A program made the translations under genes and the position numbers. Below the pieces are notes generated by a model that was not told where the DNA came from, did no database searches, and saw only the letters and a program-made list of their open reading frames with translations. DNA of 45,551 nt. Source: Chitinophagaceae bacterium (GTDB lineage: Bacteria > Bacteroidota > Bacteroidia > Chitinophagales > Chitinophagaceae). Below are positions 10,270-39,431 of this stretch, one piece after another. Position 1 is the stretch's first letter. The number at the start of each line of letters is the position of its first letter. The stretch covers positions 1 to 45,551 of the forward strand of contig JAEUVR010000186.1 of NCBI GenBank assembly GCA_016786785.1. Direction: 5' to 3'.

Positions 10270-11889
10270 ATGAAATTGGCGTTTTCTATTAGTTTTTATT
10301 TTATATTTCTCGGATTTTTAGCAATTGGTCAAAAAAAGAGTTTAACTGAGGATGTAAGGAAGACCATGCTTGATGCAACCAGGTATATGGTCGAGCAGGT
10401 GAGCGTCAATGGCGGCTATGTGGGAACCTATCTTCCCGATCTTTCCCGCAGGTGGGGGGAACTGGAATTTTACAAAACCCAGATCCAGGTTCAGAGCGAT
10501 GGCGTGGTTTCTATGGGAAATATATTTTTGGACGCCTATGCGGCTACCGGCGATGAATATTATTATAAAGCCGCCGAAAAAGCCGCAAAAGCATTAATAT
10601 GGGGTCAGCTTCCCTGCGGGGGATGGAATTATATAATAGATTTTGCCGGGGACCGTTCATTAAAAAACTGGTACAATACTATCGGCAAGAATGCCTGGGG
10701 ATTTGAAGAGTTCAATCATTATTATGGCAATGCCACATTTGATGATGTTACGACTTCCGATGCCGCTAAATTTTTATTGAGGATCTATTTACAGAGGCTT
10801 GACATCTCTTATAAGCCAGCCCTTGATAAAGCCATTGCATTTGTTCTTGAAAGCCAATATCCGTTAGGCGGATGGCCGCAGCGATACCCGCTCAAATACG
10901 ATTTTCCTCATGGTTTTAAGGACGACTATACTTCTTTTTACACATTTAATGACGACGTGATTTGGGGAAATATTGATTTCCTGATTCAATGCTATGTTAC
11001 GCTTGGAGACGAACGCTTTCTGGATCCTATAAGGAGGGGCATGAACTTTTACCTGATCACGCAGCAGGGGAATCCATATGGCGGATGGGGACAACAGTAT
11101 GATATGGACCTAATGCCGGCGCATGCAAGATCGTATGAGCCCCCTGTTCTTTTGCCATCAACTACTTATGAACACTGCATGTTGCTCTTACGATTTTATG
11201 AGTATACAGGCGATCGGAAATTCCTTGCGAGAATACCGGATGCCCTAGAATGGCTCGAAAATACACGCCTTCCCCAAAACCAGGCATCGGATGGAAAATT
11301 TACCCACCCGGTATTTATTGAGATAGGAACCAATAAGCCGCTTTACGCCCACCGATCGGGAACAGGCATTGTTGATGGACGTTATTGGTGGGATGATAAA
11401 GATGAAAATCCGCTTTTGCATTACGGGGCAAAATCAAATATTCCCATTGAAAAGCTGAAAGAGGAATACAAAAAAATTGCTTCTCTTACTCCCGAGGAAG
11501 CCGCTAAAAATTCGCCTCTTAAAGCTGCGCATTTTCAGCACAATCTTACCCCTCAACAGTACTATGAAAGGGCTTGGCCATTGGATAATGGACCTGATGT
11601 CGGCCGCCGAAAATATAACCCCTCTGTGAAAATAGATGAGTCACAGGTAAGAAAGATTATTAATTCGCTGGATACTCAGCATCGGTGGATGGTTAAGCAT
11701 ATACAAATAAGCCGGCCATATGCTATTACAAAAGATGGAGTTGAAACCAATACGGCAAAACTTAGCGATGAGGGCGGCAGAGGAATAGTGGATCAGTCTG
11801 AACAGGAATATCTTTCAACAAGAGAATATATGAAAAACATGCAAGTCCTGATAAGTTACATAAAACAAAAGGAGAATTGGACAAAGTAG
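10270..11889 (+). CDS. PL10-like pectate lyase, copy A
   Basis: Secreted protein of 539 aa with a signal peptide (about residues 1-20). It matches the pectate lyase family PL10 with its (alpha/alpha) toroid. ESQYPLGGWPQRYPL is the family hallmark, the TFNDDVIWG segment follows, and EIGTNKPLYAHRSG resembles the TNxPxxxxRDG motif that carries the catalytic arginine (Asp replaced by Ser here). The N-terminal half has a WGQLPCGGWNY repeat seen in the wider family. PL10 enzymes cut polygalacturonate by beta-elimination with calcium. It opens module A and is near-identical in layout to the lyase at 27246-28862. Real substrate may differ from pectin. Confidence 0.8.
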   Translation: MKLAFSISFYFIFLGFLAIGQKKSLTEDVRKTMLDATRYMVEQVSVNGGYVGTYLPDLSRRWGELEFYKTQIQVQSDGVVSMGNIFLDAYAATGDEYYYKAAEKAAKALIWGQLPCGGWNYIIDFAGDRSLKNWYNTIGKNAWGFEEFNHYYGNATFDDVTTSDAAKFLLRIYLQRLDISYKPALDKAIAFVLESQYPLGGWPQRYPLKYDFPHGFKDDYTSFYTFNDDVIWGNIDFLIQCYVTLGDERFLDPIRRGMNFYLITQQGNPYGGWGQQYDMDLMPAHARSYEPPVLLPSTTYEHCMLLLRFYEYTGDRKFLARIPDALEWLENTRLPQNQASDGKFTHPVFIEIGTNKPLYAHRSGTGIVDGRYWWDDKDENPLLHYGAKSNIPIEKLKEEYKKIASLTPEEAAKNSPLKAAHFQHNLTPQQYYERAWPLDNGPDVGRRKYNPSVKIDESQVRKIINSLDTQHRWMVKHIQISRPYAITKDGVETNTAKLSDEGGRGIVDQSEQEYLSTREYMKNMQVLISYIKQKENWTK

Positions 11890-11907
11890 ATTAAACCAAA
11901 TGCAAAA

Positions 11908-12609
11908 ATGAAAATTGAAATAAAAATAATAGCAGTTTTTCTTATAACCGGAATCATATCTTCTTTTTCAAATCCGGCTGTAATAATAAAAGAACCGCCT
12001 GTATATAAGGCATCGAAAGCGAAGGCTCCTGTAAGGATTGACGGCGACTGGAACAAAAAAGAATGGAAAAAAGTTAAAGCCGCCGATATTACGCATTATA
12101 TGGGCAAGATACCCGCCTTTCGTCCTGTAGCGGCGGTCAAAATGATGTACGACGAGAAAAACTTGTACCTCATTTTTCGCGTTAAGGATCGTTTTGTGCA
12201 GTGTGTAAACCTTGAATACAATAGCCCGGTTTGGAAAGACGCCGCGATTGAGTTTTTCTTTTCGCCCGATACCGATGCGCCCAACGCTTATTTTAACCTG
12301 GAGATCAATTGCGGCGGCTCCGCCTTAATGGGATATCATAATGCGGCGCAAAAGAAGAATATCCAGATCGACAGTAATGATATTAAACAAATAGAGATCG
12401 CGCATTCCCTACCTAAAAAGGTTTACCCTGAAATAATTGATCCGGTAACCTGGACAATTGAATGCAGGATCCCGCTCGCGATACTAGAGAAATATACAAC
12501 TATTACTGCTCCAGGACCAGCCATTGCCTGGCGCGCTAATTTTTACAAAATTGCAGAGGAAGGATCTAACCCACATTTTATAACCTGGTCTTTAGTGAAT
12601 AATGTCTAA
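11908..12609 (+). CDS. CBM9-like carbohydrate-binding protein with a premature in-frame stop
   Basis: Exported protein of 233 aa with a signal peptide (residues 1-20) and one CBM9-like/DOMON-type beta-sandwich: APVRIDGDWNKKEW at the start, VKMMYDEKNLYLIFRV, VWKDAAIEFFFSP, YFNLEINCGGS, and WTIECRIPLAILEKY. The family normally ends in a PNFHxPEFFGxL tail. Here TAA at 12607-12609 interrupts the frame, and the very next codons in the same frame read PNFHLPEFFGVLKFNN up to TGA at 12658-12660. So the gene lacks its last strand through a single nonsense change (a Lys, Gln or Glu codon would restore it). The stop could also be a sequencing error. The gene lies 18 bases behind the lyase and ends before a terminator. 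Confidence 0.8.
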   Translation: MKIEIKIIAVFLITGIISSFSNPAVIIKEPPVYKASKAKAPVRIDGDWNKKEWKKVKAADITHYMGKIPAFRPVAAVKMMYDEKNLYLIFRVKDRFVQCVNLEYNSPVWKDAAIEFFFSPDTDAPNAYFNLEINCGGSALMGYHNAAQKKNIQIDSNDIKQIEIAHSLPKKVYPEIIDPVTWTIECRIPLAILEKYTTITAPGPAIAWRANFYKIAEEGSNPHFITWSLVNNV

Positions 12610-12680
12610 CCTAATTTTCATTTGCCTGAATTTTTTGGCGTTCTAAAATTTAACAACTGAAAAAAATTATGTTTCAATAC

Positions 12681-12709
12681 TTATTAGCAAGGATGAGCTG
12701 ATAATTTTT
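12681..12709 (+). terminator. Intrinsic terminator between the CBM9-like and transglutaminase-fold genes
   Basis: TTATTAGC (12681-12688) pairs with GCTGATAA (12697-12704) with one wobble over an eight-base loop, followed by five T (12705-12709). It lies 20 bases after the end of the read-through form of the CBM9-like gene. It may act partially, since the transglutaminase-fold gene starts only 25 bases later. Confidence 0.5.
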
Positions 12710-12734
12710 ATCCTACGGCATAAATCAAGAAAAA

Positions 12735-15122
12735 ATGGAAAATCAACTGGGTAACAAAAGTTCCCCGAATACCGGCGATATCGATGCGAAAACATCGTGG
12801 AAATACAGTCCCGCCCTGCTCTTTGTCTTCATTCTATTGCTTGCTTCCGCATTTTCCCTGGTTGCGCAAACCCAAAAAAGCGTTGTAACGGAAATGTCTG
12901 CAGAGCAGGCCTACCAGGATGGATTCACATACGACGTAATGAATACGCCGTCTCGCGATGGAATTCGTATTGTTGACCGGACGCTTCTTGAAAATGACGG
13001 CGCAGGCGCAGGGGCCAGCGAGAAAGGCGCGTATCTTGAATTCATCGATGCGGGGGTACTCGCACGTAAGCAATTCTACCTGGATGACCCGCGCGCCCAA
13101 AGAGCGCATGTCGTTTTGTATATGACGCAACATGCCAACGATTTTGGAAAGCCTGCCCCCTATTACCTTATTGTCAATGGAAAGCGGATTCCGGGAAGCC
13201 ATTCATCATGGTTGCAACCCCAATGGCAATGGGTGGAGATCCCCGTATCTCTTTTAAGAGAGGGGCTGAATGAGGTGATTGTGGGATCTGATGCGCCAAA
13301 GGGCAAGGGAAATGATCTGTTGTTCGCCCGCGAAGACGAATACAATGATGGAGGCGCAAAATTTACTTATGATGGCAACACTGCTATGATCAGCGCCGAC
13401 CAGGTTCGCCTCAACAAGGAGGAAACAAACACAAAGTCGGCCCCGGAACCTAATTCATTTATGTATTTCCGCCGTTCGAGTGAAGAGATACAGGCCAAAC
13501 TAAAGCCTATCCATGTTGGCGCCAGCTCTGCAAAATCGTTGGATGGCGGTAAGACCTGGCTTAAAGGCAAACTGGGGCCTCGCAATAACGTTTCCGGAGA
13601 GTACGCCATCCGCCTGAGTTTAGATCGCTTTAAGCCAGAAGCAATGCTTGATTCTCCCCCAATTGATCTTTGGTCTGGCATAGAGGGTTATCCTGTTGTT
13701 CGCCCTGTTTGCAGGGTAGAAGGACTTCGTATGGATGTCGCCGCTTTTGTTCCTGAAGGCGCCGAGGTTATATGGCAAGCGCGTATGGCCAATACCAATG
13801 ATATGTTGGATAAGGAATGGGGAACATGGCAGACGCTTGGCAGCGGGGCCAGCGCCTCCTTTCAACTACCGGATAGAGATATGCGCTATCTTCAATGGAG
13901 GGCTTTTTTGAAGACGAGGGATCCGCTTGTTTCGCCGGTCGTCAAAAATGTGAGCATTCACCGGCAACTGAGCTATGATCCGCCTCCGTCTGATACTTAC
14001 TATGTTACCGAAGCTATTAATCCTGCGCATCATTATTCCTCTTTTCGTATGTCCTATGAAAATGCGTCGGATAAGACATTAAAGTTGATTCGCGACAGGC
14101 TCAAGATAGATTCTTTGATCAAGGACGCTCATGGAGATTTTGAGAAAATAAATCGTATTCGCCATTTTGTGTCTGGTCTTTGGCGCCATACATATCCCAT
14201 GCCGGAATATCCCGAATGGAATGCCCTTAAAGTGCTGGATCGGAACGAACGCCTTGGGGCCGGCGGGATGTGTATTCAGTTTTCGGTTGTATTTATGCAA
14301 GCCCTTCAGTCTCTGGGCTATAATGTGCGACATATAAATATCTTCACGCACGAATCTGTTGAAGTTTATGTAGATGAACTTGGCGCCTGGGTGCACGTAG
14401 ATCCCTGGAGCTTCTCTGACTCTTATGAATTCAATGCCAGTACCGGTAAACCGCTCGGCGTACTTGAGCAACACCAATGGTTTCTGAAAGAATTGGGGTT
14501 TTCTGCGGCGAATCCGATTGACTGGACCAATCCCATGCCTTGGACAGCCTGGTCTCCAAAAGAATCAAAAAACCTGGACCGCTTTTCTGCGCCTATCGGT
14601 TTCTCCACTTTCACCGATTATGTAAATAACCCTGATCGGCCGCCTTTCAACCACCGGCTGGCTGGATTCATTCGGTTTATCCCCCGTAACGACTTTCTAT
14701 CGCGCCCCTATCCGCGGCCCCTCACCCAGGGCGTAGCCATCTGGCCCTGGAACGGCTATATTAACTGGTATGACAGCGCAACTCCAAGAAGATTGGAATA
14801 TGCCTTACATACGGATCGGCCGGCAGACTTCTACCCTACCCTCAACAGGGTGGAGTATAGCGCGACTTATGATACTATTGAGGGGCAGATCAATATCCAC
14901 ATGATTACCGTCACGCCTAACTTCGAAACCTTTGAGATAAATATTGACGAACAGGGATGGCAACCCTCTCCCGATAAATTTACCTGGCGGTTGAGACCAG
15001 CGGCGCGCAATACGCTTAGAATGAGAATACGCAATGCCGGATCGGCGCTTGGCGAACCATCAGGTTTGGAAGTTTTCTGGCACTATCGTGAACCTTATAA
15101 ACCAAGAGCAACTAGCAAATAA
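12735..15122 (+). CDS. Secreted transglutaminase-fold protein, copy A
   Basis: Exported protein of 795 aa with a long N-region and hydrophobic segment (about 26-44). Residues 100-210 resemble a jelly-roll/galactose-binding domain (QFYLDDPRAQRAHVVLYM, WQWVEIPVSLL, GLNEVIVGSD). Residues 245-415 form further beta domains, with SLDGGKTWLKG like an Asp-box. A transglutaminase-like core follows at about 460-560: Cys513 in GAGGMCIQFS, His539 in THESVEVYVDELGAW and Asp556 in HVDP form the complete Cys-His-Asp triad. The C-terminus is a beta domain. This fold makes or breaks amide bonds; the actual reaction is unknown. A close copy lies at 34837-37224. Confidence 0.8.
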   Translation: MENQLGNKSSPNTGDIDAKTSWKYSPALLFVFILLLASAFSLVAQTQKSVVTEMSAEQAYQDGFTYDVMNTPSRDGIRIVDRTLLENDGAGAGASEKGAYLEFIDAGVLARKQFYLDDPRAQRAHVVLYMTQHANDFGKPAPYYLIVNGKRIPGSHSSWLQPQWQWVEIPVSLLREGLNEVIVGSDAPKGKGNDLLFAREDEYNDGGAKFTYDGNTAMISADQVRLNKEETNTKSAPEPNSFMYFRRSSEEIQAKLKPIHVGASSAKSLDGGKTWLKGKLGPRNNVSGEYAIRLSLDRFKPEAMLDSPPIDLWSGIEGYPVVRPVCRVEGLRMDVAAFVPEGAEVIWQARMANTNDMLDKEWGTWQTLGSGASASFQLPDRDMRYLQWRAFLKTRDPLVSPVVKNVSIHRQLSYDPPPSDTYYVTEAINPAHHYSSFRMSYENASDKTLKLIRDRLKIDSLIKDAHGDFEKINRIRHFVSGLWRHTYPMPEYPEWNALKVLDRNERLGAGGMCIQFSVVFMQALQSLGYNVRHINIFTHESVEVYVDELGAWVHVDPWSFSDSYEFNASTGKPLGVLEQHQWFLKELGFSAANPIDWTNPMPWTAWSPKESKNLDRFSAPIGFSTFTDYVNNPDRPPFNHRLAGFIRFIPRNDFLSRPYPRPLTQGVAIWPWNGYINWYDSATPRRLEYALHTDRPADFYPTLNRVEYSATYDTIEGQINIHMITVTPNFETFEINIDEQGWQPSPDKFTWRLRPAARNTLRMRIRNAGSALGEPSGLEVFWHYREPYKPRATSK

Positions 15123-15311
15123 ATATTAATGAGTCAGGTTCCAATACCGCGAGATGAGCAGGATATTAAGAAGGAGCGAAAGAATGGATTTACAAACTAA
15201 ACCTCCTATTAAAATTTCAGCGCGAATTCCCCGAAACAGAACTACGGTCGCCGGACAGAATAGCGCATGCAAATAAAACGAATTAAATAACCGAATAATA
15301 AAAAGAAAATC

Positions 15312-16079
15312 ATGCGAGAATTAAGGAAAGGCAATTTAACGGTCAAAATATTTGAAACCAGGGCCCTCATGGGCGCGGCGGCCGCCGCTATTGCCGCGGA
15401 TAAAATTGTTGAATTATTGAAAGAAAAGGAATTTATCAATATTGTTTTTGCAGCAGCCCCCTCCCAAAATGAATTTTTAGCTAGCCTGGCAGAAAAGAAG
15501 GTCGATTGGAAAAGGGTAAACGCATTTCATATGGATGAATATGTAGGCTTGAACAGCGAGGCGCCGCAGTTGTTTGGCAATTTTCTAAAACAGCGATTTT
15601 TTGGTAAAGTCTCGCTTCGGAATACTTTTTACCTTAATGGAAGCGCCGCCGATCCTGACCAGGAATGTAAAAGATATGCTGAATTATTAGAGAAATATCC
15701 GACCGATATTGTATTTCTGGGAATAGGCGAAAACACGCATGTGGCTTTCAATGACCCCCATGTCGCTGATTTTAACGATCCAGCGATAGTGAAGATCGTA
15801 GACCTGGATGAAAAAAACAGGCGACAACAGGTAGACCCCGCTGATCCATCCTGCTTTAACCATATAGAGGAAGTCCCTACGCATGCAATCACCCTTACTG
15901 TGCCGGCCCTTTTTAAAGCTGATTATGCTTATGCAATAGCGCCCGGCGATAAAAAAGCAGATGCTATCTATCACACGCTTAACGAAGAGATCCAGGAGAA
16001 CTATCCTTCTACTGTTTTTAGAAACCACCCCAATGTTATGTTGTTTATAGATGAAAAAAGCGCGGCAAGATTAGCGTGA
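15312..16079 (+). CDS. NagB-like amino-sugar-6-phosphate deaminase, copy A
   Basis: Cytoplasmic enzyme of 255 aa from the glucosamine-6-phosphate deaminase/6-phosphogluconolactonase family. It has NAFHMDEYVGL with Asp75, matching the proton-shuttling Asp72 of E. coli NagB, and GIGENTHVAFNDP with His143. Two residues of the usual catalytic set differ: the position of Asp141 is Asn141, and Glu148 is Asp148. Such GIGEN variants are common outside Proteobacteria and may be true deaminases or isomerases of another amino sugar. A second copy at 38664-39431 shares the same changes. In module A there is no NagA next to it; about 190 bases without a gene separate it from the transglutaminase-fold gene. 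Confidence 0.8.
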   Translation: MRELRKGNLTVKIFETRALMGAAAAAIAADKIVELLKEKEFINIVFAAAPSQNEFLASLAEKKVDWKRVNAFHMDEYVGLNSEAPQLFGNFLKQRFFGKVSLRNTFYLNGSAADPDQECKRYAELLEKYPTDIVFLGIGENTHVAFNDPHVADFNDPAIVKIVDLDEKNRRQQVDPADPSCFNHIEEVPTHAITLTVPALFKADYAYAIAPGDKKADAIYHTLNEEIQENYPSTVFRNHPNVMLFIDEKSAARLA

Positions 16080-16414
16080 TTTCGTTAGGTAACAGTCAAA
16101 AAATGCATTTGTAGCCAAATCGGTATAAAAATATTTATCTGTACTTTTGATCTTAATCAAAAAAGTTTCTACTTATTATTATTTGCGTCTTTAAATTTTA
16201 TTGCATGGATTTAACGGATGTTTTTTGATTTACAAACATTGACTGTCAGTATCTTAAGAAAGTAATTCCTAACCCTTTCCTAATCCGATAGAAGACAAAC
16301 CAGTCAAGGATTTGAGGGCGCTTATCTATCCAACGTCGAAGCAGTACTGATTTAAAATTAAGATTTATCTATATTTGAAGAGCAAGGGATTTTTCTTTAT
16401 ATAAATGCTACAAC
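16080..16414 (+). promoter_or_regulatory. Spacer with candidate sigma-factor promoter
   Basis: No gene is recognised in these 335 bases. TATATTTG at 16370-16377 matches the Bacteroidota -7 consensus TAnnTTTG exactly and lies 37 bases before the sigma-factor TTG start. Upstream, ACTG at 16346-16349 is only a weak -33 match. A five-codon ATG frame (16405-16422) overlaps the sigma start. Confidence 0.4.
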
Positions 16415-16987
16415 TTGCCTAACTGCCTACAATACGATGAAAAAGCGTTGCTTGCTGAGATCGCATCCGGCAATGAACCTGCATTCAGGAGATTATTTGA
16501 TATTTATAAAGACCGTTTTTATGCTGTAGCCTTTAAGATGACGCAATCTGATGAAACCGCGCAGGATATTGTACAGGAAGTTTTTATGAGTATCTGGAAA
16601 AATCGTTCGAACCTGCTGAATGTTGATCATCCTTCCTCCTACTTCTTCACTGCCGTTTACAGAAAAGTATATCATCACTACCGTAGGTTAGCTGCTGAAA
16701 GAAAATTCTTACAATCTACCTCTGTAATTAACACTGCTGAAAATGCTACTGATGAAATAATCCTTGCTAACGAATGCAGGGAATTGATATCCCAGGCGAT
16801 AACCCGGCTGCCAGCCCGGCAAAAACTGGTGTTTAAGCTAAGTAAAGAGGAAGGTATGGACCGGGAAGAGGTCGCCCGTCAATTAGAGATATCGCCGAAT
16901 ACCGTTAAAAACCATCTCTCTGATGCAATTAAATCTATTCACACCTTCCTACGTAAGTCATCTTTTATTTTTCTGATGATGATATAA
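16415..16987 (+). CDS. ECF RNA polymerase sigma factor (sigma-70 family, Bacteroidota type)
   Basis: Extracytoplasmic-function sigma factor of 190 aa. Region 2 (about residues 20-90) contains AFRRLFDIYKDRFYAVAFKM, DETAQDIVQEVFMSIWKNR and SYFFTAVYRKVYHHYRR. Region 4 (about 125-180) has LPARQKLVFKLSKEEGMD and the helix-turn-helix IAxxLxISxxTVKNHL-like segment VARQLEISPNTVKNHL. No in-frame ATG lies before region 2, so the TTG at 16415 is the best start. It precedes the FecR-type gene and SusC/SusD genes, and most likely directs their transcription when the anti-sigma factor releases it. Confidence 0.9.
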   Translation: MPNCLQYDEKALLAEIASGNEPAFRRLFDIYKDRFYAVAFKMTQSDETAQDIVQEVFMSIWKNRSNLLNVDHPSSYFFTAVYRKVYHHYRRLAAERKFLQSTSVINTAENATDEIILANECRELISQAITRLPARQKLVFKLSKEEGMDREEVARQLEISPNTVKNHLSDAIKSIHTFLRKSSFIFLMMI

Positions 16988-17216
16988 TGGCGTTATCGGT
17001 GCGTTATTCACCAGTTGATTGCCTGAAAATCTATCGATAGCGATAGGCATTGCTACCCGTCTGGCCCTTATAGACAGGGGATATCTGAATGAAGAGTCGA
17101 AATTCTGTTGGAACATCAAACCGGAATTCATGTTCCGTGAAATAATTTTTAGGCGGGAGTAGTACAAATGCTTTCCTTGTGTATCTGTCTAATACAGGAT
17201 TAAAGATTTTAATGAT

Positions 17217-18410
17217 ATGGAACTTTCCAAAGACCGAGTCTTTTATTTACTGGATGCATATATCTCCAAACGATCCACTGTTTCGGAGGAAAATGAGCTT
17301 ATGGAATGGCTTCGAAAACCAGGCTATCATTCTGAATTAAAAGATTTTGTATGGGATATATGGAGCCGGCAGCACCCTGAAAAACGTCTTTCTGACGCGG
17401 ATTGGGACGCTATATATACCCGTGCTATTAGCGATCCGAAGGCGGCGCCCTCTGTCAAAGTGAGAAGAATGAAGATGTTCAGGATAACTGCTGCCGCAGC
17501 TGCAGTCATAATACTATTTACCGGGTATTATTTTTATTTTTCCTCTGTCAGAGAGTCCTCCTCGCGCGTCTTACGATCAGCCTCCAAAGATATTGCCCCG
17601 CCTTCAGGAAGCAAGGCAGTGCTCATTTTAGCCGATGGCTCCAGCGTCGAAATAGATGATGCGGCTAAGGGAACTATTGCTATGCAAGGCAATATAAGCA
17701 TAGTCAAACAATCCAATGGAGGGGTTGCTTACACGGGCAACGGCGCTAAAGCTATCGGATATAATACATTCAGCGTTCCGCGAGGGAGCAAACCATTGAT
17801 GCTCACGCTCTCTGATGGCACTCATGTATGGCTTAATGTGGGATCCAGCCTCAGTTTTCCTACCGTCTTCGCTGATAAGGAAAGAAGGGTAACAATAAGC
17901 GGAGAAGCCTATTTTGAGGTAGCGCATAATGAGGCGATGCCTTTCAGGGTACAGCGCGACGACGTTACGATCTCCGTCTTAGGAACGCATTTTAATGTAA
18001 ATACGTATGAAGATGAAGCTACTCAGGAGATCACGTTATTGGAAGGTTCTGTGCGGGTGAGCAAAAAGACGGTTTCGCAACTGTTACAACCGGGTCAGCA
18101 GGCGAGTATAGGCCATGGGGAGAGCGCCGATATCAAAGTATCCAACGAAGTAAATATAGAAGATGTGATGGCTTGGAAGGGCGGTAAATTCCGGTTTAGC
18201 GAAAGTATGGATATACGCGATATCATGCGCCAGATCTCCCGCTGGTATAATGTAAATGTGGAGTATAAGGGAAAGGTAGATCAGCGCTTCCTGGGATCTA
18301 TCTCAAAAGACATAAATGCATCGCAGGTATTAAAAATACTGGAGGCGGCCGGGGGAGTTAAATTTAGTATAGAAGGCAACAAGATCGTGGTCATGCCGGC
18401 TAAGCCCTAA
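17217..18410 (+). CDS. FecR-family transmembrane anti-sigma factor
   Basis: Inner-membrane regulator of 397 aa. The cytoplasmic N-terminal anti-sigma region (1-85, with FVWDIWSRQHPEKRLSDADW) is followed by one membrane segment at about 88-108. The periplasmic FecR domain comes next (about 175-285: SVPRGSKPLMLTLSDGTHVW, RRVTISGEAYFEVAHN, VLGTHFNVNTY, ITLLEGSVRV), then the C-terminal DUF4974 domain (WKGGKFRFSESMDIRDIMRQ, WYNVNVEY). It senses the state of the SusC receptor through that receptor's STN domain and controls the sigma factor encoded just upstream. The 229-base gap to the sigma gene is longer than usual. Confidence 0.93.
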   Translation: MELSKDRVFYLLDAYISKRSTVSEENELMEWLRKPGYHSELKDFVWDIWSRQHPEKRLSDADWDAIYTRAISDPKAAPSVKVRRMKMFRITAAAAAVIILFTGYYFYFSSVRESSSRVLRSASKDIAPPSGSKAVLILADGSSVEIDDAAKGTIAMQGNISIVKQSNGGVAYTGNGAKAIGYNTFSVPRGSKPLMLTLSDGTHVWLNVGSSLSFPTVFADKERRVTISGEAYFEVAHNEAMPFRVQRDDVTISVLGTHFNVNTYEDEATQEITLLEGSVRVSKKTVSQLLQPGQQASIGHGESADIKVSNEVNIEDVMAWKGGKFRFSESMDIRDIMRQISRWYNVNVEYKGKVDQRFLGSISKDINASQVLKILEAAGGVKFSIEGNKIVVMPAKP

Positions 18411-22056: not shown

Positions 22057-22074
22057 CCTGTAAACAAAACAAAT

Positions 22075-25462: not shown

Positions 25463-25589
25463 CCGATCGATAACTAGGAAATCTAAGATGACGGCGCGCT
25501 AAAAATTCATTGAAGCAGAACATTGATCCAAAAATCCCTATTTAATACTACAACCCTCATTGTCAAATGCGTTAAAAGCAAAATCAAAA

Positions 25590-27179: not shown

Positions 27180-27245
27180 TAACTGCATACTATTCTTTTA
27201 CTATTATCTCAACGGGATCAAATGAGTATATCAAACTATAAGGCT

Positions 27246-31900: not shown

Positions 31901-32543
31901 GCGTCTTTTTCGTATAAATGACGGACGTTACAAGATAGCATTGTATGAAGACCCCGGAAATAATGGGAACGGAGGAGCTGAGATATGGTCGGTAGTGAAG
32001 GATCTTTCAAGGTTCGATGTGGTAACCCTGCCAGTGCCTCCGCGAAAATCATTGGTTATAAGGGTCGAGAAGATGCAAAGCAACTCCCGCCCGTCAGAAC
32101 TTCCCGACCTGGCTATTGATCCCTGGGATGCGATATGGAGCAATAATACTGTCAATGCAACTATTCATAATCTTGGTAATGACAAAGTAGAGAACCTGCG
32201 CGTGAGATTACTTGACGGCGAGAAACCAATTGCAGATAGAGTAATAAATCGGTTAAATGCGCCAACTGATTTTGTTGCAAAACGGGCTAATGTTTCATTT
32301 GATAATATTCCATTTTCCAGTAATCTAAAAATCATAATCGATCCAGATGGTCAAGTAAGAGAAATTTTGAAAGAAAATAATAGCGCTCGCGTTGTTCCTT
32401 CCGATTTCCAGTCAAAAGATCCAATAATATGGAACGTCTATAGAAATAAATTTGATGAGGCATGGCTTGAGTTACGCAAGCACGGATATGGGAATGATAG
32501 CGACAATAGTAGTAACGCGTTTAGTGTTAACTCAAAAAATTAG
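28905..32543 (+). CDS. Large secreted multidomain protein with LamG-like, toroid-like and CARDB-like parts
   Basis: Exported protein of 1212 aa with a signal peptide (to about residue 27). Residues 40-270 look like a concanavalin/LamG jelly roll (GAVAFWAKGEIAFPGP, WNHVVLNWDWANGMELWLNG, YDELYLMDRPLSDREIARL). Middle beta regions follow. At about 735-900 a helical part with WWLKQQNPDGQIGGGWNDD and LQDGNYSLLDFINAIQTKL recalls the (alpha/alpha) toroid of lyases and glycosidases. The C-terminus (about 1065-1160) resembles a CARDB adhesion domain (LPDLAIDPWDAIW, VNATIHNLGNDKVENLRVRL). I do not recognise a described family. Its place between a lyase and another unknown secreted protein suggests a glycan-degrading enzyme. 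Confidence 0.7.
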   Translation: MMYDISKIATSFIIICSCLLGIKVYSQSNGGAKGPELYRTPVSYYMSFDNPDFFKEDFIEQSGKKSIAERKIDFPGGKFGKGIRMSFIPAPPDANNMSGIDLDLITAVLFNTHPGNTMGYNQPFIWGSGRVSPRLGAVAFWAKGEIAFPGPLFEQTTISFGRKERDLIGILTNSENKISAYLRDARYVRHELNSEAVWDPSVWNHVVLNWDWANGMELWLNGRKIASSWGEDGWFETAPPGLFHLPAPGMIYDELYLMDRPLSDREIARLMSSNTPPKNESLTYVRKDPDSKRLARYSGADRSENLPVISPDRPLSFSEVWPADVADGKVPGWHVIDGRNEMAWPHDYAYFTIIPGDGDFHAEKVDIKTSPESTVNYITLTGNLTNVKVQSGRDEMRNKEDLFKAPDNNGFFYGSMITATEGSTFRIPFTEKYGAPSDFNGDLRLPLSGEKRIQEVGLYHVTSAPYSTNSPKGDKLVLSFTKPELDKRTQFAMRALTSRDERKVATAARSTTGKQKSVADIGAFSRLNILSEPYSKPQGITGLTLSLPIKTNKPEEVLFIRVRDPGVPSRLWNQFAVKLSGFDKGYRRLALTIDFHDIVVAKGDRLWIDLGTVDKTEVLIGDPTNEAALFVSSVASYICLDAYAEKEIIPGKAQYSKQYEFMPWQFTNERVDIDDPSCYGGSYDMLLPALAIHRVKPDDFVANFLIAMSGPDFKDGNRRKPLTAPLITLTDPFRAPDWAVYMRDYNKKRWAIVDWWLKQQNPDGQIGGGWNDDAMFGNMGFEDLLQDGNYSLLDFINAIQTKLELTGLFRNGFCNIYPIDRLHIGDFISERYKTIVHNLGQAYAAEREMESAWRLGKPEKTPINYYAEGFKSSVNVLNWYWGKDVPDAPYISKPIDSLTQRLRLFASVLDSNSFYRLTAARVMTDDFLPYGSEWSGEDNIYAYMLGGARGARVDAHPRLSVGWPSGGGPDMARLVLRADDNSLHALAYSFGNKLHNLDMRLFRINDGRYKIALYEDPGNNGNGGAEIWSVVKDLSRFDVVTLPVPPRKSLVIRVEKMQSNSRPSELPDLAIDPWDAIWSNNTVNATIHNLGNDKVENLRVRLLDGEKPIADRVINRLNAPTDFVAKRANVSFDNIPFSSNLKIIIDPDGQVREILKENNSARVVPSDFQSKDPIIWNVYRNKFDEAWLELRKHGYGNDSDNSSNAFSVNSKN

Positions 32544-32549
32544 GAATTG

Positions 32550-34700
32550 ATGATAGCCTGTTTATCAAAAAAGAATATTCTTTTTCTTCTACCGGTATTT
32601 TGCTTTATTGCTTTGAGTGTTGAATGCCTGGCTCAACCGGTTTCGGGAGGGGTATTTATTCCGCGTAACCAAGGATATGAAGGCCGGATTGGACGTTCTC
32701 ATGTTGTTTTTGACAATACTTCCGGCGGCGTGATGAAAATCGTCTATAATGAGTGGCCCAACTTGAAGGCGGCGGCAAAGCTCGATATGGTATTTACTGT
32801 CAAGGCGCCCGGCGCAAACAATGAAATTGAAGTCCGGCAGTCTTTTGATAAGAACCCGCAAATACTGTTTCTGGAGGAAGGCAATGACCGTATTGGCTTG
32901 CGGGTACTCTTTAAATTATACAGCGCTGATCAGGGATATTACGGTCATGGTATGACTGAAACCTGGCTATATCCAAACGGTGAGATGTTTATTACAGAAG
33001 CCGCAATGTTTGAGAATCCTGCCCTGCAAAAAGCGGTAACCCGCGCCAGGCTGGATATTCATATCCCTGAGGAGTTGAGGAACGGCGCCTTGGCCGGCGA
33101 TGTATTGATGGATGATGCCAAAATACCCGGCCGCCATCTTTTCCTGACGAAAGCTGGCGCTGGCATACCAGATCGCCTGTCCTTATACTGGCGTACAGGC
33201 AGAATGGAGCTTAACACTTATATTTTTCGCAGTTCATTTGGCATGGATGGCTCGCCGACTTACTTCCGCTGGCCGGACTATGTTCGTCAGGCGTACGGTA
33301 CAGATCCGATACAACCATCTATTAAAGCCGCTTATCTTGAAAAATTAATCCCATCCAGAGAAGGAGTGCAGCTTAGTTGGCCGACTGATTTGAATGATCC
33401 CAAACCCACTACCCTTTTTAGAGGTTTTTTTAGACTTGGAATGGCAGCGGATTCAATTGTGGCTAAGTCCTTCGTTGAAGCTGAACGGGAGCCTGTGAAG
33501 TTGAATGTTTCCGGAGGCCTGGCGCAAGGCTTTGTTTCCGGTGTTGATAAGGAATCTGAAAAAAGAGGGTACAATGACCAGGAAGGTTGTTACGAGGTCC
33601 GTAAGACCGGCGCAGATCCAATGGTCATAACGCTGCCGGCTGATCCATTATCCCGTACTATCCGGGTTAAAGCGATAGCGCTTTCCGGCCACGGCGCCGT
33701 TACCATGGAGCTTAATGGCAAGCCGGTAACGCCTCAGCTTACTACCGACGGCGGAATTGCAGATGACCCACTGGCTCCGATTCGGGAAAGCCCGGAAGGC
33801 CCGGCCAATGCTGCGATGATTACGGTGAAACTTTCAAATAAGCCGCAAATATTAACCGTGAAGGAAGTTAATGGCATCCAGCTGACTTACCAGTCCCGCG
33901 ATCCCAGAAGAAATTTTCAGATCTTTTCGACGAAGACAGGACCGCGCTGGTCTGGCCTTAGTTTTTCACTTGTGGACGGACACGGTCGTAACATGCGGGC
34001 CTATGGTAAGCAAGATTGGGCTTTGACCGATAATCTCCTGCACTGGTTTGCCTGGATGGGTTACACGCCTGAACAAATGCTTGATCAACTTCGCGACTTT
34101 GTCGTTGTTAAGAATGGCCCAGATGAGATCATTTTCAGGTACACAAGCAATAATGTCAACGATGGCGCCCAATCGGAATTTTTGGTGAGCGCCAAGGCCA
34201 ATGCCCCGGCAATGCAAATTAATATAGGCGCAACCTTTACGGTATTGGAGCAATGGCCTTATCAGAGCGTGCAGTTTTTCGATGCTTTTCCATTTCGCGG
34301 GGTAGAACCCAAAGACTGGTGGTACGACAATGTGATGCATATGTCGTCTGAAGGCAAATGGCAAACATATAAAACAGTCAATCGGACTACTAATGGAAAT
34401 TTGGATATTGAAAAAATGGTTGGCAATACATTTATAGGATTATATGGCTCAGATCGCGGTAACGTTCTAATGCTGGTAAAAGACTCAAAGCCTAAATTGA
34501 CAACCTTTCATGCGATTTGCAGCAATTACATTGATCTGCATATGAATGTTTTGTTTGATAGTTCAAAAAAGATAGAAAAGGGTTATCAGCTAAAGGTTGA
34601 TTATGAACTGGCGATCTGGGGTAATAAAGCATTGACAGAAAGCCGTCTTGCTGAAATTGGTAAGAAGAGTATAAAAGCAGGAACGCTTGCAATACCCTAG
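32550..34700 (+). CDS. Secreted beta-rich protein of unknown family
   Basis: Exported protein of 716 aa. ATG at 32550 has AGGA at 32542-32545 and follows the 1212-aa gene by six bases, so both are probably translated together. A signal peptide ends near VECLAQ. The rest is beta-rich with many aromatic residues (YYGHGMTETWLYPNGEMF, LSLYWRTGRMELNTYIF, NMRAYGKQDWALTDNLLHWF, VEPKDWWYDNVMHMSSEG). I cannot assign a domain. The tight link to the 1212-aa gene suggests they act together on the same glycan. Confidence 0.7.
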   Translation: MIACLSKKNILFLLPVFCFIALSVECLAQPVSGGVFIPRNQGYEGRIGRSHVVFDNTSGGVMKIVYNEWPNLKAAAKLDMVFTVKAPGANNEIEVRQSFDKNPQILFLEEGNDRIGLRVLFKLYSADQGYYGHGMTETWLYPNGEMFITEAAMFENPALQKAVTRARLDIHIPEELRNGALAGDVLMDDAKIPGRHLFLTKAGAGIPDRLSLYWRTGRMELNTYIFRSSFGMDGSPTYFRWPDYVRQAYGTDPIQPSIKAAYLEKLIPSREGVQLSWPTDLNDPKPTTLFRGFFRLGMAADSIVAKSFVEAEREPVKLNVSGGLAQGFVSGVDKESEKRGYNDQEGCYEVRKTGADPMVITLPADPLSRTIRVKAIALSGHGAVTMELNGKPVTPQLTTDGGIADDPLAPIRESPEGPANAAMITVKLSNKPQILTVKEVNGIQLTYQSRDPRRNFQIFSTKTGPRWSGLSFSLVDGHGRNMRAYGKQDWALTDNLLHWFAWMGYTPEQMLDQLRDFVVVKNGPDEIIFRYTSNNVNDGAQSEFLVSAKANAPAMQINIGATFTVLEQWPYQSVQFFDAFPFRGVEPKDWWYDNVMHMSSEGKWQTYKTVNRTTNGNLDIEKMVGNTFIGLYGSDRGNVLMLVKDSKPKLTTFHAICSNYIDLHMNVLFDSSKKIEKGYQLKVDYELAIWGNKALTESRLAEIGKKSIKAGTLAIP

Positions 34701-34836: not shown

Positions 34837-37224
34837 ATGAAAAATAAATTGGATAATAGGAGTTCCCCCAATATGGGCGATACCGAAGTGAAAATATTAT
34901 GGAAATGCAAATCAGTCGCGTATATTATTTTAATCTTATTGCTTACTCCAGCATTTTCCTTATTTGCACAAACTAAAAAACGCATAGTAACGGAAATGTC
35001 CGCTGAAACGGCCTATCAGGATGGATTTGCATACGATGTCATGCATACGCCATCCCGCGATGGCATCCGTATTGTTGACCGGACGCTTTTTGAAAATGAC
35101 GCGGCTGGCGCAGGCGCGAGCGAAAAAGGCCCTTATATTGAGTCGATCCACGTGGGGACGCTCGCACGTAAACAATTTTACCTGGATGACGCCCGCGCTC
35201 AACGGGCCTATATCGTTTTGTATATGACGCAGCAATCCAACTCTTTTGGGAAGCCTGCTCCTTATTATCTTATTGTTAATGGAACGCGCATTCCTGGAAG
35301 CGCTCCATCATGGCTGCAACCGCAATGGCAATGGGTGGAGATACCGGTTTCTCTTCTAAGGAAAGGCTTGAACGAAGTAATTGTGGGATCCGATGCCCCT
35401 AAGGGCAAGGGCAATGATCTGTTGTTCGCCCGTGAAGACGAATACAATGACGGGGGCGGAAAGTTTACCTATGATGGCAACACGGCCATGACCAGCGCCA
35501 ACCAGGTTATTCTGGGTAGTGAGGAAACAGGAATACAATCAGCCCAGTCGCATAACTCATTCGCGTATTTCCGGCGTTCGAATGAAGAGATCCGGGCCAA
35601 ATTAAAACCTATTAACGTTGGCGCTAGCTCGGCGAAATCAGTAGATGGCGGCAAGACCTGGATCAAGGGCAAATTAGGGCCTCGCAACGAAGTTTCCGGG
35701 GAGTATGCCATTCGCCTGAGCCTGGATCGCTTCAAACCGGAAGGCGTTCTTGATTCTCCGCCAATAGATCTTTGGTCGGGTATGGAAGATCATCCTGTTA
35801 TTCGTCCGGTTTGCAAGGTAGAACAGCTCCGTATGGATGCATCTGCCTTTGTTCCGGAAGGAACCGAAGTTGTCTGGCAGGCGCGTATGGCCAATACCAA
35901 TGATATGTTGGACAATGAATGGGGATCATGGCAGACGCTGGGCAGTGGAGCCATTGCCTCCTTTCAACTTCCGGATAAGGGTATGCGTTACCTTCAGTGG
36001 AGGGCCTTTTTGAAAACGAAGGATCCGCTGCTTTCTCCGATCGTTAAAAATGTCAGCATTCATCGCCAATTGAGCTATGATCCGCCTCCATCGGCTACTT
36101 ACTATGCTACTGAAGCCATTAACCCCGTACATCGCTATTCTTCTTTTCGCATGTCCTATGAAAAGGCATCGGATAAAACATTACAATCGATTCGTGAAAG
36201 ACTGAAGATAGATTCCTTGATCAAAGATGCTCATGGAGATTTTGAGAAAATAAATCGGATACGCCATTTTGTATCAGGTCTTTGGTACCATTCATTTCCT
36301 ACGCCGGGATATCCGGAATGGAATGCGCATAAAGTGCTGGATCGTAATGAGCGGGTTGGCGCCGGCGGAATGTGTATTCAGTTCTCGATCGTATTTATGC
36401 AGGCCCTTCAGTCCTTAGGGTATAATGTGCGGCATATAAATATTCTCTCGCACGAATCCGTTGAGGTTTATGTAGATGAACTTGGGGCCTGGGCGCATAT
36501 TGATCCCGAGAGCGTCTATGATTCCTATGAATTCAATGCGAATACCGGTAAACCTCTTAACGTACTTGAACAGCACAAATGGTTTTTGAAAGAATTGGGC
36601 TTTTCTTCAGCTAATCCAATTGATTGGACCAACCCGGAGCCGTGGACAGTCTGGTCTTTGCCGGAGTCTAAGAACATAGAGCGCTTTCCTGTCCCAACCA
36701 GTTTCTCCACCTTTACCGATTATATAAATAATCCTAATCAGCCGCCTCCCCAGCATAAGCTGGCTGGGTTTATTCGGTTTATTCCTCGCAACAATTTTCT
36801 ATCGCGACCTGCTCCGCGACCCCTCAGTCATGGCGTGATCGCCTGGCCCTGGAACGGCTATATCAACTGGTATGACAGCGCAACCCCGAGAAGGCTGGAA
36901 TATGCCTTACATACGGATCGCCAGGCAGACCTATACCCCACCCTGAACAGGGTTGAGTATAGCGCTACTTATGGCAATACGGAAGGTCAGATAGATATCA
37001 GTATGATTACCGTAACGCCAAATTTTGAAACCTTTGAGATCAATATTGACGGACAGGGATGGCAGCCGTCTCCGGATAAATTTACATGGCAGTTGAGACC
37101 TTCGGCGTTAAATACGCTTAAGATGAGAGTGCGTAATTCTGGATCGGTGGCGTGCGAATCATCAGCTTTGGAGGTCTTCTGGCACTATCGCAAACCTTAT
37201 AAACCGCGAACGGTTAGCAAATAA
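34837..37224 (+). CDS. Secreted transglutaminase-fold protein, copy B
   Basis: Exported protein of 795 aa, collinear with and closely similar to the product of 12735-15122, with the same length. A hydrophobic export segment lies at about 28-45 (YIILILLLTPAFSLFAQ). The jelly-roll-like domain, the SVDGGKTWIKG segment and the transglutaminase-like core are kept. Cys513 lies in GAGGMCIQFS, His539 in SHESVEVYVDELGAW and Asp556 in HIDPESV, so the triad is intact. A conserved leader around the start codon is also shared with copy A. It is followed by nagA and nagB rather than by nagB alone. Function as for copy A: an amide-directed reaction is likely, but the substrate is unknown. Confidence 0.8.
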   Translation: MKNKLDNRSSPNMGDTEVKILWKCKSVAYIILILLLTPAFSLFAQTKKRIVTEMSAETAYQDGFAYDVMHTPSRDGIRIVDRTLFENDAAGAGASEKGPYIESIHVGTLARKQFYLDDARAQRAYIVLYMTQQSNSFGKPAPYYLIVNGTRIPGSAPSWLQPQWQWVEIPVSLLRKGLNEVIVGSDAPKGKGNDLLFAREDEYNDGGGKFTYDGNTAMTSANQVILGSEETGIQSAQSHNSFAYFRRSNEEIRAKLKPINVGASSAKSVDGGKTWIKGKLGPRNEVSGEYAIRLSLDRFKPEGVLDSPPIDLWSGMEDHPVIRPVCKVEQLRMDASAFVPEGTEVVWQARMANTNDMLDNEWGSWQTLGSGAIASFQLPDKGMRYLQWRAFLKTKDPLLSPIVKNVSIHRQLSYDPPPSATYYATEAINPVHRYSSFRMSYEKASDKTLQSIRERLKIDSLIKDAHGDFEKINRIRHFVSGLWYHSFPTPGYPEWNAHKVLDRNERVGAGGMCIQFSIVFMQALQSLGYNVRHINILSHESVEVYVDELGAWAHIDPESVYDSYEFNANTGKPLNVLEQHKWFLKELGFSSANPIDWTNPEPWTVWSLPESKNIERFPVPTSFSTFTDYINNPNQPPPQHKLAGFIRFIPRNNFLSRPAPRPLSHGVIAWPWNGYINWYDSATPRRLEYALHTDRQADLYPTLNRVEYSATYGNTEGQIDISMITVTPNFETFEINIDGQGWQPSPDKFTWQLRPSALNTLKMRVRNSGSVACESSALEVFWHYRKPYKPRTVSK

Positions 37225-37445: not shown

Positions 37446-38636
37446 ATGGATGGGAAACTGAAAATAACCAACGGACAAATACTGACCCCTTTCAGGATCA
37501 TCCGAAACGGAACCATAGTGGTAACTGATAGTAAAATTACCGATGTAAGAGAAGGCGGGCTGGACTTGCCGGATGCTATAGAAATTGATGCAAAGGGGCA
37601 ATACATTTCTCCCGGCTTTATTGACATACATGTGCACGGCGGCGGCGGTTATGATTTTATGGATGCAACAGTCAAAGCCTTTTTAAACATTGCTGAGATT
37701 CATGCTAAACATGGAACTACTTCGATGTTGCCCACAACGCTTACTGCTGAAAAGGAGGATCTTTTTCTCACTTTGGATACTTACAAGCAAGCAAAAAAGG
37801 AGAATAGAAATGGATCGGAATTTCTGGGAATGCATCTTGAAGGCCCCTATTTTAATGTCAATCAAAGAGGAGCGCAAGACCCGAGGTATATCCGCAACCC
37901 CGATCCCGCGGAATACAAGGATATAATGAGGTATGGTTCCGATATTAAGAGATGGAGCGCAGCCCCGGAACTGCCGGGATCAATAGAATTTGCAAGGTAT
38001 TTAAGATCTAACGGGGTGTTGGTTGCATTGGGACACACAGATGCGACATATGATGAAGCGTTGATTGGCTATGAAAATGGTTTTACGTTAGCGACGCATT
38101 TTTACTCCTGTATGACGGGAGTTACGCGTAAGCAGGCCATGCGCTATGCCGGAACAATAGAAGCCGGATATCTATTGGAGGGGATGGACGTAGAAGTTAT
38201 TGGAGATGGCATTCATTGCCCTCCCCCATTATTAAAATTAATCTATAAAACAAAAGGAACAGATCGTATCGCTTTAATCACCGATGCTATGAGAGCCGCG
38301 GGTATGCCTGAAGGAGAAAGTATTCTTGGCAGTTTGCGCGACGGGTTAAAAGTGATCGTTGAGGATGGAGTTGCCAAGTTGCCCGATAGGAGTTCTTTTG
38401 CAGGCAGCGTGGCGACGGCTGATCGGTTGGTTAGAACTATGGTAAAGATGGCGGATATACCTTTACTGGATGCGGTAAAAATGGCTACGATGACGCCCGC
38501 GTCTATCTTAAATGTCTTTGATCGAAAGGGGTCCTTAATTCCCGGAAAGGATGCTGATATAGTTATTTTTAACGATGACATACAAATTCAGATGACCATG
38601 GTAAATGGTAGGATAATCTATAAAAGAGAAGGTTAG
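37446..38636 (+). CDS. nagA: N-acetylglucosamine-6-phosphate deacetylase
   Basis: Cytoplasmic amidohydrolase of 396 aa that removes acetate from GlcNAc-6-phosphate. Metal and catalytic residues are visible: His62 and His64 in DIHVHGGG, Glu132 in HLEGPYF, His197 in GHTDATYDE, His218 in THFYSCMTG, His257 in GDGIHCPP and Asp280 in LITDAM. The C-terminus has TPASILNVFDRKGSLIPGKDADIVIF, common to this family. The product, glucosamine-6-phosphate, is the substrate of classical NagB, whose homologue is encoded 27 bases downstream. The pair shows that the locus handles an N-acetylated amino sugar, although the exact epimer is not certain. Confidence 0.92.
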   Translation: MDGKLKITNGQILTPFRIIRNGTIVVTDSKITDVREGGLDLPDAIEIDAKGQYISPGFIDIHVHGGGGYDFMDATVKAFLNIAEIHAKHGTTSMLPTTLTAEKEDLFLTLDTYKQAKKENRNGSEFLGMHLEGPYFNVNQRGAQDPRYIRNPDPAEYKDIMRYGSDIKRWSAAPELPGSIEFARYLRSNGVLVALGHTDATYDEALIGYENGFTLATHFYSCMTGVTRKQAMRYAGTIEAGYLLEGMDVEVIGDGIHCPPPLLKLIYKTKGTDRIALITDAMRAAGMPEGESILGSLRDGLKVIVEDGVAKLPDRSSFAGSVATADRLVRTMVKMADIPLLDAVKMATMTPASILNVFDRKGSLIPGKDADIVIFNDDIQIQMTMVNGRIIYKREG

Positions 38637-38663
38637 TTGAGTAATATCTAAAAAGGAAAAATT

Positions 38664-39431
38664 ATGCGAGAACTTAAAAAGGGAAATCTGGCGGTTTGGA
38701 TATTTGAAACCAGGGCGGCTATGGGCGCCGCTGCAGCCGCTATTGCAGCGTATAAAATTGCTGAATTACTGGAGCAGAAGGAGTTCATAAATATTGTTTT
38801 TGCAGCAGCCCCTTCTCAAAATGAGTTTTTAGCTAGCCTGTTGGAAAAAGAGGTCGATTGGAAAAGGGTAAACGCCTTTCATATGGATGAATATGTAGGC
38901 CTGAATAGCGAAGCGCCACAGTTGTTTGGTAATTTTTTAAAGGAAAGATTTTTTGGAAAAGTAGAGCTTGGGAATACTTTTTATCTGAATGGCAGCGCGC
39001 TCGATCTTGACCAGGAATGTAAAAGATATACTGAATTGTTAGAGAAATATCCGACCGATATTGTATTTCTGGGAATAGGCGAAAATACGCATGTAGCTTT
39101 CAATGACCCGCATGTGGCTGATTTTAATGACCCGTTAACCGTAAAGATCGTAGACCTGGATGAAAAGAACAGGCGGCAGCAGGTAGATCCCGACGATCCC
39201 TCCTGCTTTAACCATATCGAGGAAGTTCCTACCCATGCCATCACGCTGACCGTGCCTGCGCTTTTTAAAGCAGACCATGCTTATGCGATCGCGCCCGGCG
39301 AGAGGAAAGCAGACGCCATCTATCATACCCTGAACGAAGAGATCCAGGAGAACTATCCTTCCACCATTTTCAGAAAACACTCCAACGCCGTTTTATTTAT
39401 AGATGAAAAAAGCGCGGCAAGATTAGCCTGA
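38664..39431 (+). CDS. nagB: NagB-like amino-sugar-6-phosphate deaminase, copy B
   Basis: Cytoplasmic enzyme of 255 aa, closely similar to the product of 15312-16079, with exact DNA identity over 47 bases at 39039-39085. Asp75 in HMDEYVGL and His143 in GIGENTHVAFNDP are kept; as in copy A, Asn141 and Asp148 replace the Asp and Glu of E. coli NagB. It directly follows nagA, the normal order for GlcNAc use, so deamination of glucosamine-6-phosphate to fructose-6-phosphate is the simplest reading. An isomerase or deaminase for galactosamine-6-phosphate is an alternative. Confidence 0.85.
   Translation: MRELKKGNLAVWIFETRAAMGAAAAAIAAYKIAELLEQKEFINIVFAAAPSQNEFLASLLEKEVDWKRVNAFHMDEYVGLNSEAPQLFGNFLKERFFGKVELGNTFYLNGSALDLDQECKRYTELLEKYPTDIVFLGIGENTHVAFNDPHVADFNDPLTVKIVDLDEKNRRQQVDPDDPSCFNHIEEVPTHAITLTVPALFKADHAYAIAPGERKADAIYHTLNEEIQENYPSTIFRKHSNAVLFIDEKSAARLA

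Follow-up and report, generated by a model that had tools for sequence, protein, structure and literature searches.

Results

Organization of the locus

The DNA analysed here (hereafter, the window) is the whole of contig C158, 45,551 bases from a Chitinophagaceae metagenome-assembled genome of 4.5 Mb in 464 contigs (completeness 93.8%, contamination 6.1%). It carries a SusC/SusD locus in which the genes for a PL10-like polysaccharide lyase (PL), a transglutaminase-fold protein (TG) and a NagB-like enzyme are each present twice, as copies a and b. From 10270 to 41718 the genes form one run on the plus strand, with intergenic gaps of 3 to 380 bases. Copy a consists of an exported lyase, PL_a (10270..11889), TG_a (12735..15122), a protein of 795 aa with a transglutaminase-like core that also appears, by eye, to be exported, and NagB_a (15312..16079), a sugar-phosphate isomerase/deaminase-like protein with no signal visible by eye. 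A CBM9 protein with its own signal-like N-terminal stretch, again by eye (11908..12609; PF16011, 89.8 bits), lies between lyase and TG. Copy b consists of PL_b (27222..28862), TG_b (34837..37224) and NagB_b (38664..39431); a 1212-aa LamG/CARDB protein (28905..32543) and a 717-aa orphan (32547..34700) separate lyase and TG, and the N-acetylglucosamine-6-phosphate deacetylase NagA (37446..38636) lies between TG and NagB.

The original prediction, that the three genes occur twice, in the same order and 17-23 kb apart, with copies alike over most of their length in protein and DNA, was confirmed, with all six open reading frames (ORFs) found on one strand, at or close to the positions proposed. 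The second lyase was called from 27222; the proposed start at 27246 is an in-frame ATG at codon nine, and the first copy begins opposite it in the alignment. Pairwise alignment gave 429/536 identical residues for the lyases (80.0%; 79.7% at the nucleotide level), 639/795 for the TG proteins (80.4%; 80.7%) and 228/255 for the NagB-like proteins (89.4%; 84.4%). BLASTN comparison of the window with itself yielded three long matches in direct orientation, of 1593, 2471 and 787 columns (each with E=0), and, for the remainder, a single inverted match of 45 bases (E=0.001). Similarity between the copies reaches only a short way upstream, by 79 bp for TG and by 13-15 bp for the lyase and NagB, so that outside the genes themselves the two copies have little in common. 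Estimates by YN00 were dN 0.112 and dS 1.109 for the lyases (dN/dS 0.10), 0.119 and 0.708 for TG (0.17) and 0.066 and 0.604 for NagB (0.11); these low ratios indicate that purifying selection has kept both copies of all three genes. Repeated assembly of a single locus was considered but does not explain the two copies, given a DNA difference of about 20% between them and the single set of a sister species (see below) in a similar setting. The GC content, considered with respect to a horizontal gain of copy b, ranged from 0.40 to 0.48 along the window.

The lyase, the transglutaminase-fold protein and the NagB-like enzyme

The PL10-like label proposed for the lyases was sustained by PF09492 (82.3 bits for PL_a and 72.5 for PL_b; cutoff 22). 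PL_a matched the PL10 structure 1r76 in the PDB (E=3.6e-12), and PL10 chains were the only PDB entries to match the lyase profile (A4) below E=1e-10. PL_a scored 77 bits with the TIGR02474 pectate lyase equivalog, far under its cutoff of 189.8. The accessible part of PMC10992409 describes Pel10A as requiring Asp451 for calcium, Arg524 as the base (called hypothetical there) and Glu535 for structure. The equivalent of Arg524, R287 in PL_a, was present in 13 of 13 lyase relatives. Alignments disagree on the counterpart of Asp451, which is D218 by the 1gxm rows and D228 by a 1r76 row and an F/Y-N-D motif; both window lyases have Asp at both positions, and among the 13 relatives Asp occurs at 228 in 12 and at 218 in four. 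The position of D158, also present in PL_a, is occupied by Asp in 1gxm, by Ala in 1gxo, by Asp in 11 of the 13 relatives and by Lys in both lyases of genome G320, from a second genus. In the first lyase of this G320 pair (the two together span L053:3835-7363), one residue is inserted and position 228 is Glu. Judging from these alignments, the window lyases appear to keep most of the PL10 residue set, and the G320 pair may differ.

All three TG proteins found, those of the window and one from the sister species, matched Transglut_core (PF01841), with scores of 28.0 (TG_a), 23.3 (TG_b) and 25.2 bits; at a cutoff of 23, TG_b barely passes. Cys513, His539 and Asp556, the triad places having been assigned by eye, are identical in all three (alignment A3). 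In this and the other counts for family and phylum, in which the window's own genome is always included, TG was rare. Of 394 family genomes searched at E≤1e-10, two (the own and sister genomes) carried a full-length TG; of 296 phylum genomes searched at E≤1e-20, the own genome alone gave a match, and the plasmid collection gave none. Two further candidate carriers, G324 and G664, were rejected as partial matches: a free-standing 295-aa transglutaminase-core protein and a match of 53 residues. A scan of genome contigs for distant relatives with two peptide patterns, which distant ones can escape, returned one locus, that of the sister species.

The NagB-like label likewise stood, with PF01182 scores of 66.4 (NagB_a) and 65.3 bits (NagB_b) against a cutoff of 27, and the best PDB matches were glucosamine-6-phosphate deaminases (E=8.7e-30 for NagB_a). 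The proteins contain the motifs FHMDEYVGL and GENTHVAFNDP. NagB of the window type was found in 21 of 195 family genomes at E≤1e-50. NagA exceeded the TIGR00221 equivalog cutoff (293.1 versus 225.65 bits), and NagB_b starts 27 bp downstream from it.

Other genes of the locus

Between the two copies lie genes for an ECF sigma factor (16415..16987; PF08281, PF04542), a FecR anti-sigma factor (17217..18410; PF04773, PF16344), a SusC-like TonB-dependent receptor with an STN domain (18670..22056; PF07715, PF13715, PF07660), a SusD-like lipoprotein (22075..23655; PF12741, 375 bits; 38.5% identity to the SusD beside the L053 lyases) and two proteins without a Pfam family, of 459 aa (24036..25415) and 539 aa (25560..27179), both propeller-like by eye. 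With SusC and SusD adjacent (18670-23655) and sugar-active neighbours, the gene content is that of a polysaccharide utilization locus. The 1212-aa protein scored 27.4 bits with PF07705, above the cutoff, and 24.4 bits with PF13385, below the cutoff of 27.6; at E≤1e-10 it was found in 1 of 292 phylum genomes, its own. The 717-aa orphan had no Pfam, NCBIfam or PDB match and was not found in the remaining three of the four genomes compared in the genus (own genome included). Several large proteins of the locus have no catalytic domain assigned. Downstream of NagB_b, the run continues with an SDR of the D-mannonate oxidoreductase group (39700..40524; NF006132, 329.6 bits, cutoff 281) and ends with an aldo/keto reductase (40591..41718; PF00248). 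In positions 9945-18700, 13 promoters were predicted versus a mean of 20.0 in shuffled sequence, no excess, and 12 terminators versus 9.4 in shuffles. The end of the contig (41854-45497, minus strand) encodes a sodium:solute symporter, a mutarotase-like protein, a PIG-L deacetylase and an RraA-like protein, two of the called ORFs overlapping.

A single set in the sister species

A sister species of the same genus, Chitinophagaceae bacterium UBA2791 (G496; contig DEHV01000059.1), has a single set of lyase, CBM9, TG and NagB in the order of the window, at 75-91% identity, a range that includes the genes to the left. These left-hand relatives are ABC2, LytTR, histidine kinase, CrcB, a 226-aa protein and an outer membrane protein. 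The setting is similar, not identical: there are extra genes between the kinase and CrcB, including one for a DNA polymerase III alpha subunit, and the window's BNR protein has no match in the G496 stretch. The pair formed by the LytTR response regulator and the Reg_prop/Y_Y_Y histidine kinase (window 1263-5169) is kept in the sister species at 75-89% identity.

In the 40 kb read from G496, which extends 18.7 kb downstream of the NagB start, we found no ECF, FecR, SusC, SusD, LamG or 717-aa protein. The occurrence of lyase, CBM9, TG and NagB in the sister without SusCD indicates that the set can stand alone. Furthermore, lyase and CBM9 form one open frame of 766 aa in G496 (L008:15704-18004), with no stop codon between the two and without the N-terminal stretch of CBM9, which supports their joint action. 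The other two genomes of the genus had no lyase at E≤1e-10.

Lyase and NagB neighbourhoods in other genomes

The lyase was found in 6 of 292 phylum genomes at E≤1e-20 and in 8 of 314 family genomes at E≤1e-40. The nine loci in these eight family genomes (window a, window b, G496, G320, G364, G584, G457, G336 and G572) were read over 10 to 40 kb, G336 over 10 kb only, so that absence there is weak. NagB lay within 10 kb of the lyase in 4 of 9 loci (window a, window b, G496 and G320), all belonging to one lyase group, and was not seen in the five loci of the other group. NagA was present at two of the nine (window b and G320), TG at three and a CBM9 protein resembling that of the window at three (window a, G496 and G320). 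A LamG protein adjoins the lyase in five (window b, G364, G584, G457 and G336), the window b score being under the Pfam cutoff; in G364 and G584 the neighbours, 1280 and 1248 aa long, are 67% alike, and their identity to the 1212-aa protein is 21-23%. The G584 lyases are also accompanied, within 10 kb, by KduI, an SDR and an MFS transporter. Outside the family, G238 and G188 (lyase identity 41-43%) have pectin-type enzymes, CE8- and GH28-like by eye, and neither NagB nor TG was seen over the 20 kb read; in G188, a strong GH88/105 match lies about 3 kb from the lyase. No NagB or TG was seen at the lyases of G051 and G282, also outside the family.

We listed 24 NagB places, two of them in the window, and read 20 of the other 22 (G405 and G438 were left out). 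A NagA relative of at least 55% identity occurred in 7 of these 20 stretches (L052, L053, L054, L062, L063, L065 and L070), directly beside NagB in L052, L053, L054, L062 and L070; a relative of 27-29% occurred in four (L055, L057, L061 and L066), and none was seen in nine. L053 (G320) contains the end of a SusC, SusD, an Abhydrolase_7 protein, two tandem lyases, CBM9, NagA, NagB, MFS, ECF, FecR and the start of a SusC. L054 (G410) contains SusC, SusD, an 875-aa NAGidase/GH20b protein of the GH84 type (NAGidase, 75.5 bits), NagA, NagB and, by eye, an MFS-like transporter. This transporter is followed by a 1143-aa protein (L054:12112-15543) with a weak heparinase II/III C-terminal match (18 bits, cutoff 24). 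L052, also from G320, has SusC, SusD, an 886-aa protein that resembles the one in L054 by eye, NagA and NagB. Three other genomes (L063, L068 and L071) carry relatives of the 459-aa protein (31-34%) and of the SDR (59-60%) no more than 10 kb from NagB.

In the 20 NagB stretches, no TG was detected. The combination of the three families had been proposed as a possibly undescribed system. A search of their neighbourhoods gave a divided answer: lyase with NagA and NagB recurs in a second genus (L053), where TG was not found. The triple was found only in the window's own genome (twice) and in one sister species and, by the refuting condition attached to the proposal, is not a widespread system. 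The lyase-NagB pairing thus reaches beyond the genus, and TG is a rare addition.

Phylogeny and age of the duplication

Lyase and NagB trees were rooted at the midpoint, with long outer branches for G188 and G238. In the lyase tree, window a, window b and G496 formed a clade with 100/100 support, joined to the two G320 lyases at 99/97, and the six other family lyases formed a separate group (100/99). In the NagB tree, the clade of window a, window b and G496 (88/89) was joined at 99/98 to that of G410 and the two G320 sequences (100/98). Both trees therefore group the window's genus with that of G320. The order of branching among the two window lyases and that of G496 was not resolved. Synonymous divergence between copies a and b (dS 0.60-1.11) was similar to that between either copy and G496 (0.52-0.78), suggesting that the duplication dates from around the time of the species split or from before it. 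The single set in the sister may reflect a loss there or, alternatively, a copy gained from a relative in the window genome. Doubled lyases were also seen in G320 (L053:3835-7363), 0.24 kb apart, and in G584 (L080:8061-12680), 1.3 kb apart; the doublings in G320 and in the window's genus are separate by the tree (97/94 and 100/100).

Discussion

A possible locus for a glycan with uronic acid and N-acetylglucosamine

We favour, tentatively and at a little short of an even chance, a polysaccharide utilization locus for an acidic glycan with both uronic acid and N-acetylglucosamine (GlcNAc). This reading draws on the recurrence of lyase, CBM9, NagA and NagB in a second genus and on the GH84-type protein in the SusCD-NagA-NagB locus L054. 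The locus type first proposed for the window, one for a polymer of uronic acid and amino sugar, stands as regards a SusCD locus pairing a PL10-like lyase with NagA/NagB, which recurs in L053 and in the groupings of the trees, and finds no support as regards any generality of the triple.

We infer the substrate, each catalytic step, the chemistry of TG and any division of labour between the copies as follows. The exported PL10-type lyases, aided by CBM9 or LamG binding proteins, would cut a uronic backbone by beta-elimination, and the pieces would be brought in by SusC/SusD under the control of ECF/FecR. Released GlcNAc would be converted to GlcNAc-6-phosphate and then, by NagA and NagB, to fructose-6-phosphate and ammonia. 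TG would be extracytoplasmic and, in the simplest case, a Cys-His-Asp amidase or peptidase that frees the glycan of a peptide or amide portion. Lyase, CBM9, TG and NagB would be able to stand alone, as in copy a and in the sister species, the second copy being part of a SusCD run with NagA and LamG. A peptide or amide link in the glycan is a guess, the putative TG label being its sole pointer. A bolder version, in which TG would be an extracytoplasmic amidase or transamidase acting on amide- or peptide-substituted uronic acids, opening a GlcNAc polysaccharide for a PL10-derived group of lyases that would have left both pectin and the KduI route, with the copies serving two forms of the substrate, strikes us as a long shot.

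Several observations weigh against the favoured reading. Pfam scanning of 30 window ORFs revealed no glycosidase, sugar kinase or MFS sugar transporter, and no NagA was found in the 40 kb read from G496. In the 1gxm rows, the counterpart of Glu535 in the lyases is residue 298, which is Thr in PL_a, Val in PL_b and Glu in 0 of 13 relatives; one 1r76 row points to residue 299, where 12 of the 13 have Thr, one has Ser and none has Glu. NagB_a fell under the NCBIfam NagB cutoffs (139.3 versus 528, 126.9 versus 236.9 and 124 versus 326 bits), and GENTHVAFNDP has Asp at the place of Glu148 of E. coli NagB. AlphaFold2 models of TG, built from three sequences, were uninformative (pLDDT of 31.4 for the whole protein and 45.7 for the core), and Foldseek with the core model returned 60 matches at E≤10, none at E≤0.001, with no transglutaminase among the 50 of these 60 that were listed. 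KduI (PF04962), detected in 9 of the 13 genomes tested, was not found in the own genome, G496, G368 or G320. GH88/105 (PF07470), with strong matches in 10 of the 13, including G320, gave two matches in the own genome, both below the cutoff, and one partial match over the cutoff in G496. The usual route for unsaturated uronides was thus not found in this 93.8%-complete genome; in the two TG-bearing species, the uronide may be discarded or take another route, or the lyase may make another product.

Alternative explanations

The lyase family itself suggests an ordinary pectin locus, in which homogalacturonan or rhamnogalacturonan would be cut and NagA and NagB would be general amino-sugar neighbours; PL10 enzymes described in the accessible parts of PMC6278402 and PMC10992409 are pectate lyases. 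The 41-43% relatives beside CE8- and GH28-like proteins, the strong GH88/105 match of G188 and the KduI and MFS transporter near the G584 lyases all point in the same direction. However, the window contains no pectin esterase, GH28, GH88/105 or KduI by Pfam, and neither KduI nor an over-cutoff GH88/105 was found elsewhere in the genome. All seven tested genomes with other lyases of this family (G364, G584, G457, G336, G572, G238 and G188) yielded KduI and none of the three that combine lyase and NagB (G000, G496 and G320) did, a contrast based on few, related genomes, two of them about 94% complete. We therefore regard a pectin locus as unlikely. We are more doubtful still that the NagB-like protein acts on a sugar phosphate or lactone of a uronic acid branch rather than on an amino sugar. 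Its scores under the cutoffs of all NagB models listed, the replacement of the usual motif by GENTHVAFNDP and the 13 of 20 relatives' stretches without a NagA of at least 55% identity would fit such a role, but its best PDB matches are to deaminases of an amino sugar phosphate, and it adjoins a bona fide NagA both in the window and in the five stretches listed above.

The same gaps in uronide metabolism could be read differently, as signs of a proteoglycan- or glycoprotein-like target from which the organism would live mainly on amino sugar and peptide, with TG as a peptidase and the uronide discarded. Both TG-bearing species are without KduI and a convincing GH88/105, and NagA and NagB are present. 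Nevertheless, G320 and G368 have no KduI and no TG either, so KduI loss and TG are not tied; no further peptidase or peptide transporter was found among the 30 window ORFs scanned, and the activity of TG is itself putative. Such a target seems improbable to us. The doubling, for its part, is compatible with any substrate, and the copies could simply reflect dosage or history (an old duplication or a gain from a relative), with one task between them. We consider this quite possible, if somewhat under an even chance: the divergence between the copies is like that to the sister and the tree order is unresolved, but the copies keep different partners (CBM9 versus LamG, the 717-aa protein and NagA) and both are under purifying selection.

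If the favoured reading is true, one group of a lyase family otherwise associated with pectin has been put to use, along with genes for amino sugars, on a glycan that mixes uronic acid and GlcNAc, and the breakdown of glycans has gained a protein with a transglutaminase fold. For activity screens, lyase, CBM9, NagA and NagB supply specific candidates from two genera, and a compact version of the system, consisting of lyase-CBM9, TG and NagB, is available in the sister species.

Comparison with known systems

In the open-licence literature, we found no paper joining PL10, pectate lyase, NagB and Bacteroidetes, and none joining transglutaminase-like, SusD and polysaccharide utilization, although transglutaminase, pectate lyase, polysaccharide utilization loci and Bacteroidetes do co-occur in one paper. 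Glycosaminoglycan loci resemble the window in combining a lyase with NagA/NagB-type genes, but the Pfam matches of the window include no known glycosaminoglycan-lyase family, GH88 or KduI. For the uronide step of such loci, the accessible part of PMC12838403 names UGL and KduI or DhuI; of the last two, KduI was not found in the genome and DhuI was not searched for.

The window lyases are akin to PelA of Azospirillum (1r76) and Pel10A of Cellvibrio (1gxm), which match the lyase profile at E=4.7e-15 and 1.6e-14, respectively, and share with them the Arg524 equivalent; the two alternative positions aligned with Asp451 are both Asp in either copy. They differ in being about 130-210 residues longer than the solved chains, in falling below the TIGR02474 cutoff and in having no Glu at the place of Glu535. 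TG shares with the Transglutaminase-like superfamily (PF01841) an above-cutoff core domain, with Cys, His and Asp kept in its three members, but at 795 aa it has long flanks matching no family, and no solved relative. As in Bacteroidota SusCD loci with ECF/FecR, SusC, SusD, ECF, FecR, lyase, binding proteins and sugar-phosphate enzymes lie in one run; the window departs from these loci in having no recognized glycoside hydrolase and in carrying lyase, TG and NagB twice.

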